64,000 bases of DNA, taken from NCBI GenBank assembly GCA_013821455.1, contig JACDGS010000007.1, positions 1 to 64,000 of the forward strand. The letters are read 5' to 3'. Position numbers and translations under genes: made by a program. Positions 4,673-10,019 of the stretch are shown piece after piece. The notes under the pieces are model-generated. The model saw only the letters and a program-made list of their open reading frames with translations. It searched no databases and was not told where the DNA came from. This DNA comes from Chthoniobacterales bacterium. Lineage in GTDB: Bacteria > Verrucomicrobiota > Verrucomicrobiia > Chthoniobacterales > UBA10450. Position 1 is the first letter of the stretch. Each line of letters opens with the position of its first letter.

Positions 4673-4894
4673 CGCCCGCACGATCTCCAAAACACCGTGC
4701 GGTGTCGATCATTGAGGCAATAAACGACAACGCATCTAGAAGCACAGGGTCCACGGCATTGGCACAGAACGTACGCGGCTTAAGATAGTCCTTGCTTTGG
4801 CCGCCCTTTTGCTACCTTATCGCACCATATCCCCCCCGAGCCTTCGGGCGAGGGGCGCGAGGCCGCGGGAGCAATCCTGCGGCTTCTGCATTTT

Positions 4895-5512
4895 ATGGCC
4901 CTGAAGACGAACGTCTACGTCGACGCGTTTAACCTTTACTACGGCTGTCTGCGCAAGACGCCGTATCGCTGGCTGAACCTGGCGGCACTTTGCTCGAAAA
5001 TTCTGCCGAGGAACGAAATTCATCGCATCCGATATTTCACTGCGCTTGTAACGCCGCGGCCATCTGATCCGCAACAGCGAAACCGGCAGGAGGTATACAT
5101 TCGCGCTCTGCGCACGCTGCCGAACTTGAGCGTGCACACCGGCCGCTATCTCGCGAGCAAGGTGCGAATGAAACGCGCGGACGGTTTTGGTATGATCGAA
5201 GTTCTGAAGTCGGAAGAAAAAGGCTCCGATGTCAATCTTGCCAGTTACCTGCTCATTGACGCCTACCGGAGTGATTGCGATGTCGCGGTAATTATCTCGA
5301 ACGACTCGGATCTCGTTTTCCCGATCGAGCACATCAAACAGCAAGTCGGCAAGGTCATCGGCATCCTCAACCCGCGTTCGAGACCGAGCCGGGAATTATT
5401 TCCCCTCGCAAACTTCTACCGACAAATCCGCCCGAGCGTTCTGGCCGACAGTCAGTTTCCCGACTCGTTAACAGACGCCCAAGGCGAGTTCCACAAGCCT
5501 CCAAGTTGGTGA
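4895..5512 (+). CDS. NYN-domain (LabA/DUF88-like) putative ribonuclease
   Basis: A 205-residue protein with the PIN-like NYN fold. It starts TNVYVDAFNLYYG (acidic Asp10 and Asn13), has a central EEKGSDVNLASYLLIDA motif and then DVAVIISNDSDLVFPI, giving the conserved acidic cluster that binds a divalent metal in this nuclease superfamily. The final stretch, after about residue 170, is not conserved-looking. NYN proteins act on RNA or in RNA processing; the target here is unknown. It is the first gene of a motif-free segment and lies 72 bp before a PIN-domain gene in the same orientation, so the two nuclease-fold genes may be one accessory unit. No signal peptide or membrane segment is visible. 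Confidence 0.85.
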   Translation: MALKTNVYVDAFNLYYGCLRKTPYRWLNLAALCSKILPRNEIHRIRYFTALVTPRPSDPQQRNRQEVYIRALRTLPNLSVHTGRYLASKVRMKRADGFGMIEVLKSEEKGSDVNLASYLLIDAYRSDCDVAVIISNDSDLVFPIEHIKQQVGKVIGILNPRSRPSRELFPLANFYRQIRPSVLADSQFPDSLTDAQGEFHKPPSW

Positions 5513-5584
5513 GATAGTGCCGGCACCCACGGCCAACTTTCTCCGGTTCGTTGCAGGCACCTTCGTATCTGATTCTGCACTCCG

Positions 5585-7054
5585 ATGAAATACCTCATCG
5601 ATACGAATGTGTTCATTCCTCTGGAGCCTACCGCACTCGCGGAGGTCGAGCCGTTAACGAGTGCTGCCGCAACGTTTGCCCAAAAATCGAATCGCGCAGG
5701 ATTTTCATTGTTCGTGCATCCCGCTCAGACGAGAGAGATTCTAAGCGATCGCGACGAAAATCGCCGTAGCTTGCGAAGCGAATTACTGCAGAAATATCCT
5801 CTTCTGCCTCAGCCGCCGGACTCGCGACGTGTGGACCGCGTTCTTGGCTCCGTTAAGCCCGACAGCCATCACTGGGTTGACCATCAGTTGCTGGCTGCTG
5901 TGCATGCGGACGCGATTGATACATTGATCACCGAAGACATCGGCATTCACAGGAAGGCGAAACGTCTGGGTTTGGAGCACCGGGTGGCATACTTGGCTGA
6001 GGCGATCGCAACGCTAGGCGCTCTTTTCGATAACGTCCCCGCAGCACTTCCAGCAGTTGAAGCGACGAAGGCACACAATCTCGACGCGTCAGATCCAATA
6101 TTTCACTCTGTTCGGCAGGATTATCCGCCGTTTGATGAATGGCTGAAAAAGTGTAAGCGCGAGCATCGGCAAGTTTGGATCGTTCGCGCCCCTGACAGAA
6201 GCTATGCCGGCGTCGCGATTGTGAACCGTGAAGATCGGCCGGATTTCGGGGCGACCCTGAAGACGTTGAAGATTTGCACATTCAAAGTCTCCGCGGTCCA
6301 CGCGGGATTTCGCTACGGCGAATTGTTGCTCCGCGATGTTCTCCACTACGCTGAGCAGAACGCGTTCGGTTCTCTATTCGTCGAGGTTTTTCCACGCCAC
6401 GAACGACTGGTCGCGTTTCTGCAGGAATTCGGTTTCTCTGACCAGCACGCGAATACTGGTCGCGGCGAACTGCGGATGACGAAAAGGCTCGCGTTCAACG
6501 CCGTCGACCTCGCCGAATGCGATGCTCTTGAATTCAACAGACGCTTCGGTCCATCCGCCATGAAGTGGGCGGACACTCCCGCTTTCCTTGTGCCGATCCA
6601 GCCGAAGTATCACGATCTTCTCTTCCCAGAAGGGACATTGCAGGCAGATTTCTTCGAAGGCCGCATGGCCTGCGGCAACGCACTGCGCAAGGCTTATCTG
6701 TGCAACGCGGTCTGCCGAGAAATTAAGCCGGGGGCCGCAATCTGCTTTTACAGGTCCGAAGATGTTCAGGGAGTGACCGTGATTGGAGTCGCAGAAGAAA
6801 CGCTCGTGTCGCGGCGTCCAACGGAGGTCGCTCGCTTCGTCGGAAAGCGGACTGTGTATCCGCTTCGCGAAATTGAGCGTCTATGTCAGAGCGAGGTGTT
6901 GGCAATCCTCTTTCGTCAGTCTCGAGTGCTGCGTGCGCCGATCACGTTGGACAAGCTTCTCGAAAGCGACATTATCGCCGGCGCCCCTCAATCAATTGTG
7001 AAACTGAAACTCGCCGGCCGAAGATGGATTCAGAATCAGACCCAGGCTCAGTAG
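5585..7054 (+). CDS. PIN - GNAT - PUA/EVE-like three-domain protein
   Basis: 489 residues with three parts. Residues 1-145 are a PIN nuclease-like domain: MKYLIDTNVF with Asp6, then Glu51, Asp99 in VDHQLLAA and TED at 116-118. Residues 165-305 read as a GNAT acyltransferase: QVWIVRAPDRSYAGVAIV, then KVSAVHAGFRYGELLL as a degenerate acetyl-CoA loop, then LVAFLQEFGF. Residues 330-480 look like a PUA/EVE/ASCH-type RNA-binding domain (FLVPIQPKYHDLLF, IKPGAAICFYRS, GVTVIGVAEE). The last 31 bp overlap the next gene, an ASCH protein, so the two are probably translated together. PIN, GNAT and PUA-like modules occur in toxin-antitoxin and RNA-modification contexts. The specific activity here is unknown; a toxin or antiphage role is inference. 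Confidence 0.75.
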   Translation: MKYLIDTNVFIPLEPTALAEVEPLTSAAATFAQKSNRAGFSLFVHPAQTREILSDRDENRRSLRSELLQKYPLLPQPPDSRRVDRVLGSVKPDSHHWVDHQLLAAVHADAIDTLITEDIGIHRKAKRLGLEHRVAYLAEAIATLGALFDNVPAALPAVEATKAHNLDASDPIFHSVRQDYPPFDEWLKKCKREHRQVWIVRAPDRSYAGVAIVNREDRPDFGATLKTLKICTFKVSAVHAGFRYGELLLRDVLHYAEQNAFGSLFVEVFPRHERLVAFLQEFGFSDQHANTGRGELRMTKRLAFNAVDLAECDALEFNRRFGPSAMKWADTPAFLVPIQPKYHDLLFPEGTLQADFFEGRMACGNALRKAYLCNAVCREIKPGAAICFYRSEDVQGVTVIGVAEETLVSRRPTEVARFVGKRTVYPLREIERLCQSEVLAILFRQSRVLRAPITLDKLLESDIIAGAPQSIVKLKLAGRRWIQNQTQAQ

Positions 7055-7452
7055 CTCTTCTGGCAATTAAGCCGCGTTTTGCCGACGCGATAATCGCCGG
7101 TCGCAAGACCGTCGAATTCCGTAAAACGCGATTTTCCCAGCCTCCGCGATATGTGGTGCTTTACGCAAGCACGCCGGTCAGGCAGATCGTCGCGTATTTC
7201 AAGGTCGCGTACATCAAAGAGCTTACGCCACTCGGCTTGTGGCGAAAATTTCGGCACGTCGGTGCCATCGAGCATGACGAATTTTTCGACTACTACGACA
7301 ACTGTTCCCTCGGGTACGCGATTGTCGTCGCGACCGTTTGGAAGCTCGGGAAGCCTGCTCGTTTGGGGCATTTGCGTCCGCGTGGCGCTGCACCACAGAG
7401 TTTCCGATATCTAAACAAAAGTTCGATCCGACGCCTCTCGGAACGCCGTTAG
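7024..7452 (+). CDS. ASCH-domain protein
   Basis: 142 residues from the ATG at 7024. An upstream ATG at 6883 would only lengthen the overlap with the PIN-GNAT gene and adds a non-conserved tail. The core is typical of ASCH/PUA-like proteins: ALLAIKPRFADAIIAGRKTVEFRK, then VVLYASTPVRQIVAYF and GYAIVVATVWKLG. ASCH domains bind RNA or modified nucleotides, and some are nucleoside amidohydrolases (YqfB type). It overlaps the preceding gene by 31 bp, which points to a functional pair, perhaps antitoxin and toxin or partners in RNA modification. The stop codon lies in a near copy of the 9-mer (CCGTTAGGC), the only near copy noted in this segment. Confidence 0.8.
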   Translation: MDSESDPGSVALLAIKPRFADAIIAGRKTVEFRKTRFSQPPRYVVLYASTPVRQIVAYFKVAYIKELTPLGLWRKFRHVGAIEHDEFFDYYDNCSLGYAIVVATVWKLGKPARLGHLRPRGAAPQSFRYLNKSSIRRLSERR

Positions 7453-9438: not shown

Positions 9439-9777
9439 CTAGCGGAGCAAAGCCGTAACCTTGGCCAACAGCTCCTCAATCATGGCGGTTGGTAACTTGC
9501 TGACAAACGAAGCGTGTCGCGCCGACCAATCCAGGCTCTTCACTTGGTCGCTCAGGATTGCGCCGGTAATTGCCATGTCATCGGGCAAAATGACCTCGAA
9601 CGGATAGCCCTTTATCCGATTCGTGATCGGGCAGAATAAAGCCAGGCCGGATTGTTGGTTGTAGCTGCGCGGTGAAAGCACGACCGCCGGTCGATGCCCA
9701 GCTTGTTCATGGCCGGTCTGCGGGCTGAATTGCAACCAAACCAGATCGCCGCGATCCGGGACGTAGCGACGCGGCAT
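9439..9777 (-). CDS. mazF: MazF/PemK-family mRNA endoribonuclease toxin
   Basis: 112 residues with the family landmarks: RGDLVWLQFSPQTGHEQAGHRPAVVLS at the N-terminus, containing the GDLVW strand, the GHEQ loop and the RPAVVLS strand, then PITNRIKGYPFEV and LSDQVKSLDW. This is the CcdB/PemK fold that cleaves mRNA at short motifs. The start ATG overlaps the antitoxin stop by one base (TAATG), so translation is coupled. Length and all core motifs are intact, so the toxin should be active. Confidence 0.95.
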   Translation of the reverse strand: MPRRYVPDRGDLVWLQFSPQTGHEQAGHRPAVVLSPRSYNQQSGLALFCPITNRIKGYPFEVILPDDMAITGAILSDQVKSLDWSARHASFVSKLPTAMIEELLAKVTALLR

Positions 9778-10019
9778 TACCAGGCTTCCCGCCCAGTCGG
9801 TTGATCGATCTCAGTTTCGGCGTGGCGATTTTTTTTGGTGATCCTGACGACCAGGTCTGCGAGTTGATACGTCTTGCTTGTGATCGGCGCAATCACGAGG
9901 CGCCCGCGCGTCACCCGCACATCCACCGGCTGGCCTTCGCCGACCGACATCTCCTCGGCGTAGGCGCGGGGAATGCGCAGCGCCAGGCTGTTTCCCCACT
10001 TCTGCAACACGGTGGTCAT
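9777..10019 (-). CDS. mazE: MazE/PemI-like AbrB-fold antitoxin
   Basis: 80 residues. The N-terminal VLQKWGNSLALRIPRAYAEE is the AbrB/MazE swapped-hairpin DNA-binding domain; the C-terminal TYQLADLVVRITKKN and following residues should wrap the toxin. It sits upstream of mazF with TAA and ATG overlapping by one base. MazE-type antitoxins usually repress their own promoter, which here would lie in 10020-10118. That interval also holds a perfect hairpin (10060-10093) and two tandem 9-mer copies (10097, 10108). Confidence 0.9.
   Translation of the reverse strand: MTTVLQKWGNSLALRIPRAYAEEMSVGEGQPVDVRVTRGRLVIAPITSKTYQLADLVVRITKKNRHAETEIDQPTGREAW

Follow-up and report, generated by a model that had tools for sequence, protein, structure and literature searches.

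A PIN-GNAT-EVE fusion and its ASCH partner in a Chthoniobacterales genome as a candidate toxin-antitoxin-type conflict module

Three consecutive same-strand genes in the genome of a Chthoniobacterales bacterium raise the question of whether two proteins with nuclease folds, one of them also carrying an acetyltransferase domain, and a small ASCH-domain protein act together as an RNA-targeting conflict system, as had been proposed in a sequence-only reading of the DNA. The stretch analyzed, referred to here as the window, comprises positions 1–64,000 of contig JACDGS010000007.1 and belongs to a 4.3-Mb genome in 117 contigs. All three genes are present as that reading had claimed, all on the forward strand, with open reading frames and Pfam or PADLOC matches: a gene for a 205-residue NYN-domain protein (positions 4895–5512; Pfam NYN, 1e-11), a gene for a 489-residue PIN-GNAT-EVE (PUA-like) fusion (5585–7054), and a gene for a 142-residue ASCH-domain protein (7024–7452). 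The 31-bp overlap between the fusion and ASCH genes (7024–7054), which suggests translational coupling, is likewise confirmed. The conserved ATG at position 7024 is supported as the start of the ASCH gene because the overlap is retained in related loci, at 31 bp in L112 and L116 and at 25 bp in L113. The fusion and ASCH genes have a GC3 of 0.60–0.61, one of the lowest levels among the genes of the window (mean 0.69, sd 0.05), which is consistent with acquisition. No restriction-modification (RM) system is found beside the two genes in the window; the copy there has only a MazEF-type toxin-antitoxin pair nearby, on the reverse strand (9439–10019), 2–3 kb away.

The unit is composed of two genes, those of the fusion and the ASCH protein, and their pairing is obligate. 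Relatives were compared as 51 non-redundant representatives from bacteria, archaea, plasmids, and viruses, clustered at 75% identity, of which 22 contain and 29 lack the PIN domain. An ASCH gene of the PDC-M11B type is present at the locus in 51 of 51. This gene is located directly downstream on the same strand in 44 representatives and overlaps the fusion gene in 42 (by 8–41 bp); in the other arrangements it lies directly upstream (four, on alphaproteobacterial plasmids), on the opposite strand (one), at a distance of 351 bp (one), or ~1 kb upstream (one). Within the phylum, an adjacent ASCH gene is found in 10 of the 10 fusion-carrying genomes tested. The divergences of the fusion and of the ASCH protein are correlated (r = 0.78; 0 of 2000 permutations), a figure that is inflated by shared descent. 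Coincidental proximity can be set aside for the fusion and ASCH genes, because the window's genome contains only one Pfam ASCH match. A fusion occurring without the ASCH gene in housekeeping contexts would speak against a joint role; instead, every locus carries the ASCH gene and the occurrence of the fusion is sporadic. Strong matches to the fusion are found in 4 of the 384 genomes of the class, a patchy distribution, and the family-specific ASCH gene in 5 of the 61 genomes of the family, with the pair shown in two of these (G000 and G438, the latter with two pairs). A single-protein query returned only two close relatives, the closest being from Chthoniobacterales/Spartobacteria metagenome-assembled genomes.

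Several variants of the gene organization are observed. In three prophage lineages (L045, 5986–7000; L096; L105; and near-copies of these), the GNAT-EVE gene is divided precisely between its two domains: the GNAT frame stops within a few bases of the start codon of the EVE frame, and the two intact open reading frames are followed by the ASCH gene in a natural three-gene version. The idea that the split genes are toxin pseudogenes, and hence a sign of toxicity, was dropped, as the GNAT and EVE frames are intact in all three lineages. L025 (1012–3087) and L014 (1012–3075) encode 690-residue variants, each with an ASCH partner; the L025 variant contains an additional GNAT domain N-terminal to the PIN domain and a C-terminal EVE-like part. 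In the psiM100 prophage (L138, 2554–5346), an annotated inserted fragment, IFa, spans most of the PIN-GNAT-EVE gene, and the ASCH gene (ORF5), annotated as similar to a psiM2 ORF, is located just after IFa.

The pair is a fresh Verrucomicrobiota instance of a known candidate system, and nothing about it is categorically new. The fusion matches the PADLOC model PDC-M11A (2.4e-174; residues 1–486 on profile positions 1–484 of 486), and the ASCH protein matches PDC-M11B (1.1e-38); both matches are near full length, and the genes adjoin each other in the same orientation. PDC denotes a group of putative defence candidates (PMC12988326), and PDC-M11 is a bioinformatic prediction. The same domain order and the same ASCH partner, with no architectural difference, are found in the operons of Bell et al. 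(2020), in which (PIN)-GNAT-EVE proteins with a near-constant ASCH partner were described as a putative toxin-antitoxin or defence module that is associated with type I RM, CRISPR-Cas, and prophages (PMC7641849). The sequence-only reading had not seen the exact set described; the pair, without the NYN gene, had already been reported. As stated by Bell et al., no module in these systems had been experimentally characterized (PMC7641849). Their operons occur in RM/defence or prophage settings, with an optional AAA_17 ATPase and HTH-ASCH fusions, whereas the window copy resides in a Chthoniobacterales-type genome with no adjacent RM system and with a NYN neighbor. Homologues of the pair with a 23-bp overlap are also visible in the lambdoid Escherichia phage PhiR47_2 (PV340567), between cI and kil, where the depositor's annotation names the GNAT-EVE protein "GevT toxin" and the ASCH protein "GevA antitoxin". 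GevT differs from the window fusion in having no PIN domain and shares ~25% identity with it over the common part. GevT/GevA-type pairs of at least 99% identity are present on the chromosomes of 274 of 5,426 complete E. coli genomes. A literature search found no phage-protection or functional study of PDC-M11 or GevT/GevA, and no toxicity, neutralization, or phage data on the fusion/ASCH pair.

The fusion has a modular architecture comprising a PIN domain (residues ~1–150), a GNAT domain (~155–305), and a C-terminal PUA/EVE/ASCH-like domain (~320–489). Pfam gives no PIN match for the window protein; the acidic tetrad of a PIN domain is nevertheless present (D6/E51/D99/D118), relatives L003–L007 align across this part, and the four positions (D6, D/E51, D99, D118) are acidic in 22 of 22 PIN-bearing proteins. 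Just before D99, the window protein and L112 have HH in place of the N-D found in most relatives. The GNAT domain is matched by Pfam above cutoff (2.9e-6), and its CoA loop is conserved; K229, T232, and G245 are kept in 50–51 of 51 proteins; K229 and G245, together with F173, Y180, and F183, are found in all 51. The fusion was modeled with AlphaFold2 (mean pLDDT 85.4), and its GNAT part matches GNATs (VIA-align; Z up to 17.8, rmsd 2.8, 143 aligned). RimI/Ard1/Naa relatives head the list, as they generally do in GNAT fold comparisons, and no particular substrate is singled out. In the C-terminal domain, P323, H343, and N365 are present in 51 of 51 proteins. This domain, termed PUA in the sequence-only reading, probably belongs to the PUA/ASCH/EVE superfamily, as Foldseek indicates; its best solved fold is the ASCH protein of Zymomonas mobilis, ZmASCH, and Pfam EVE gives a weak match in 9 of 31 aligned proteins and none in the window protein. 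ZmASCH is the top Foldseek match of the modeled fusion (TM on target ~0.8) in a table that carries no residue ranges; length and fold leave only the C-terminal domain as the matching part. A sequence search for solved relatives of the entire fusion found none. Every domain of the pair is under strong purifying selection, as seen in the comparison with L112: pN is 0.16 for PIN, 0.14 for GNAT, 0.14 for EVE, and 0.08 for ASCH, with pS of 0.61–0.79, values for which dS is near or beyond saturation and only the direction is safe.

The ASCH partner is matched by Pfam ASCH above cutoff (4.1e-5) and by ZmASCH (5gus) in sequence (3.6e-10), and its AlphaFold2 model (mean pLDDT 91.5) matches ZmASCH in Foldseek (1.6e-14, TM 0.8). 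ZmASCH (5guq/5gus), which was studied as an isolated domain, is of the same ASCH subfamily as the partner. It cleaves single-stranded RNA in a Mg2+-dependent manner and binds single-stranded DNA without degrading it, and the Y47F, K53E, and S128A substitutions lower binding or activity (PMC5615036). Of these cleft residues, Y47 and S128 correspond to Y47 and S126 of the window protein and are invariant in 31 aligned ASCH proteins, whereas K53 corresponds to R53 and is variable in relatives. On alphaproteobacterial plasmids, the partners of PIN-GNAT-EVE proteins are HTH-ASCH proteins with matches to ZmASCH of 1e-19 to 5e-20 and with an HTH that matches HigA/HipB antitoxins; the PDB name of ZmASCH is "Helix-turn-helix domain-containing protein". 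Because these partners match ZmASCH and carry a HigA/HipB-like HTH, ZmASCH itself very likely belongs to the partner family, as far as sequence matches indicate.

Three of the 12 pairs in the phylum lie within type I RM operons (G041, G329, and G173), two further pairs lie ~12–14 kb from such an operon (G438 and G452), and in L112 a type II methyltransferase and a probable REase (weak match) are encoded directly upstream. PIN-containing versions are observed with RM loci and plasmids and PIN-less versions mostly in prophages, as also reported by Bell et al. (PMC7641849); on a tree of the GNAT-EVE region, the PIN label requires two changes. Because the PIN domain is dispensable in the family, the core activity is attributed to the GNAT domain and the reader.

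We favor, at a probability of roughly 0.6, the reading in which the two genes form a toxin-antitoxin-type conflict module of the (PIN)-GNAT-EVE/ASCH kind (PDC-M11; GevT/GevA). This reading is based on the constant pairing and gene overlap, the conserved PIN and GNAT motifs, purifying selection, patchiness, and placement with RM loci, plasmids, and prophages, as well as on the GevT/GevA annotation, the HigA/HipB-like HTH in partner proteins, and the prediction of Bell et al. The toxin-antitoxin or antiphage role put forward in the sequence-only reading agrees, for the fusion/ASCH pair, with Bell et al., PADLOC, and the GevT/GevA record, and does not extend to the NYN gene. In the proposed mechanism, translation of the ASCH protein would be coupled to that of the fusion, which the ASCH protein would keep silent. 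Once this balance is disturbed, by infection or because the locus is lost, the PUA/EVE-like domain would dock the fusion on its target, a modified nucleic acid and most likely a tRNA, and the GNAT domain would acetylate this target (an aminoacyl-tRNA, by analogy with TacT/AtaT) and/or the PIN domain would cleave it. Inactivation of the target would stop translation and phage growth in the style of abortive infection. The TacT/AtaT GNAT toxins and the VapC PIN toxins are established families, and it is by analogy with these that tRNA is the most likely substrate; RNA as the target of the pair is plausible. The type II TacT/AtaT systems have in common with the window pair the GNAT fold and the toxin-type pairing, but have a DUF1778-type ribbon-helix-helix antitoxin beside the GNAT protein rather than an ASCH protein, and the window fusion has additional PIN and PUA-like domains. 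Within type I RM loci, the pair might act as a PrrC-like guard. Counted against the toxin-antitoxin reading are the ribonuclease activity of ZmASCH, the lack of an RM system beside the window pair, and an apparent GNAT-ASCH fusion at L148, which, as read from its frame, is hard to square with ASCH as an antitoxin only.

Such apparent single-protein GNAT-ASCH fusions are observed at L148 (1300–2520, reverse strand), G554 (C8), and G596 (C27), in frames of ~375–408 residues from the same bacterial family. The L148 gene adjoins an apparent dCTP deaminase gene.

The placement with type I and type II RM loci, here and in Bell et al., could also indicate that the pair modifies or senses DNA, with the GNAT domain acetylating a DNA base, as proposed by Iyer et al. 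(2013) and cited by Bell et al. (PMC7641849), and with the EVE and ASCH domains reading modified DNA as an RM accessory. An ASCH-HsdS fusion in Methanohalophilus (PMC7641849) points the same way. We consider this reading possible but unlikely, as 22 of the 51 representatives include a PIN domain, which has an RNase fold, the PIN-less copies lie for the most part in prophages with no RM association (PMC7641849), and ZmASCH degrades single-stranded RNA but not single-stranded DNA.

By analogy with ZmASCH, the ASCH protein may have the role of an effector and not of an antitoxin, as a second enzyme, a Mg-dependent ribonuclease for single-stranded RNA, in a two-enzyme RNA-degrading system. The sequence and fold matches to ZmASCH and the invariant Y47 and S126 argue for such an activity, but the third cleft residue is not conserved and the alphaproteobacterial partners carry antitoxin-like HTH domains, and this reading is judged rather improbable.

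For the toxin-antitoxin reading, a different form of control can be envisaged. The C-terminal domain of the fusion has an ASCH-like fold and aligns weakly with the profile of the partner ASCH, and on this basis the two proteins might be distant relatives, with the ASCH protein neutralizing the fusion as a reader-decoy that competes for the same modified-RNA ligand; this idea is held as a long shot.

A writer/eraser pair, in which the ASCH protein is a YqfB-type amidohydrolase that removes N4-acetylcytidine written by the GNAT domain, is rejected as very improbable. YqfB is of the same superfamily and among the ASCH fold matches, and the Lys and Arg of its K-x-x-T-x-R motif are retained (K28 and R33), but the nucleophile of YqfB is T24, with T24A being inactive (PMC6972931), and the position of this Thr is occupied by Glu31 in 31 of 31 aligned ASCH proteins.

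Weakest is the three-gene RNA-targeting system of the sequence-only reading, which is almost certainly wrong: the NYN gene shares the strand, lies ~70 bp from the fusion, and matches a defence candidate model, PADLOC HEC-09, over its full length (7.7e-43), but it adjoins the pair only in the window. The closest relatives, at 77% and 68% identity, have no NYN gene next to the pair, and neither do the nine further genomes of the phylum that carry the pair (where one weak match lies on a different contig) or any other locus compared (1.2 Mb). The NYN gene is an unrelated neighbor. HEC stands for Hma-embedded candidate (PMC12988326). Just upstream of the NYN gene, a 69-bp stretch (4826–4894) is 86% identical to L112 positions 5121–5189, upstream of the RM genes of that locus; it lies outside the genes that the window and L112 have in common and is single-copy in the window's genome at the search threshold.

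Members of the fusion/ASCH family are found in bacteria, archaea, plasmids, and prophages, and the literature search returned no functional paper on it. The present analysis ties its ASCH partner to a crystallized single-stranded RNA nuclease, disfavors an N4-acetylcytidine eraser, and drops the NYN gene from the module. If the ASCH protein does act as a reader-decoy antitoxin, as opposed to one that wraps the active site, it would exert toxin-antitoxin control of a new type.
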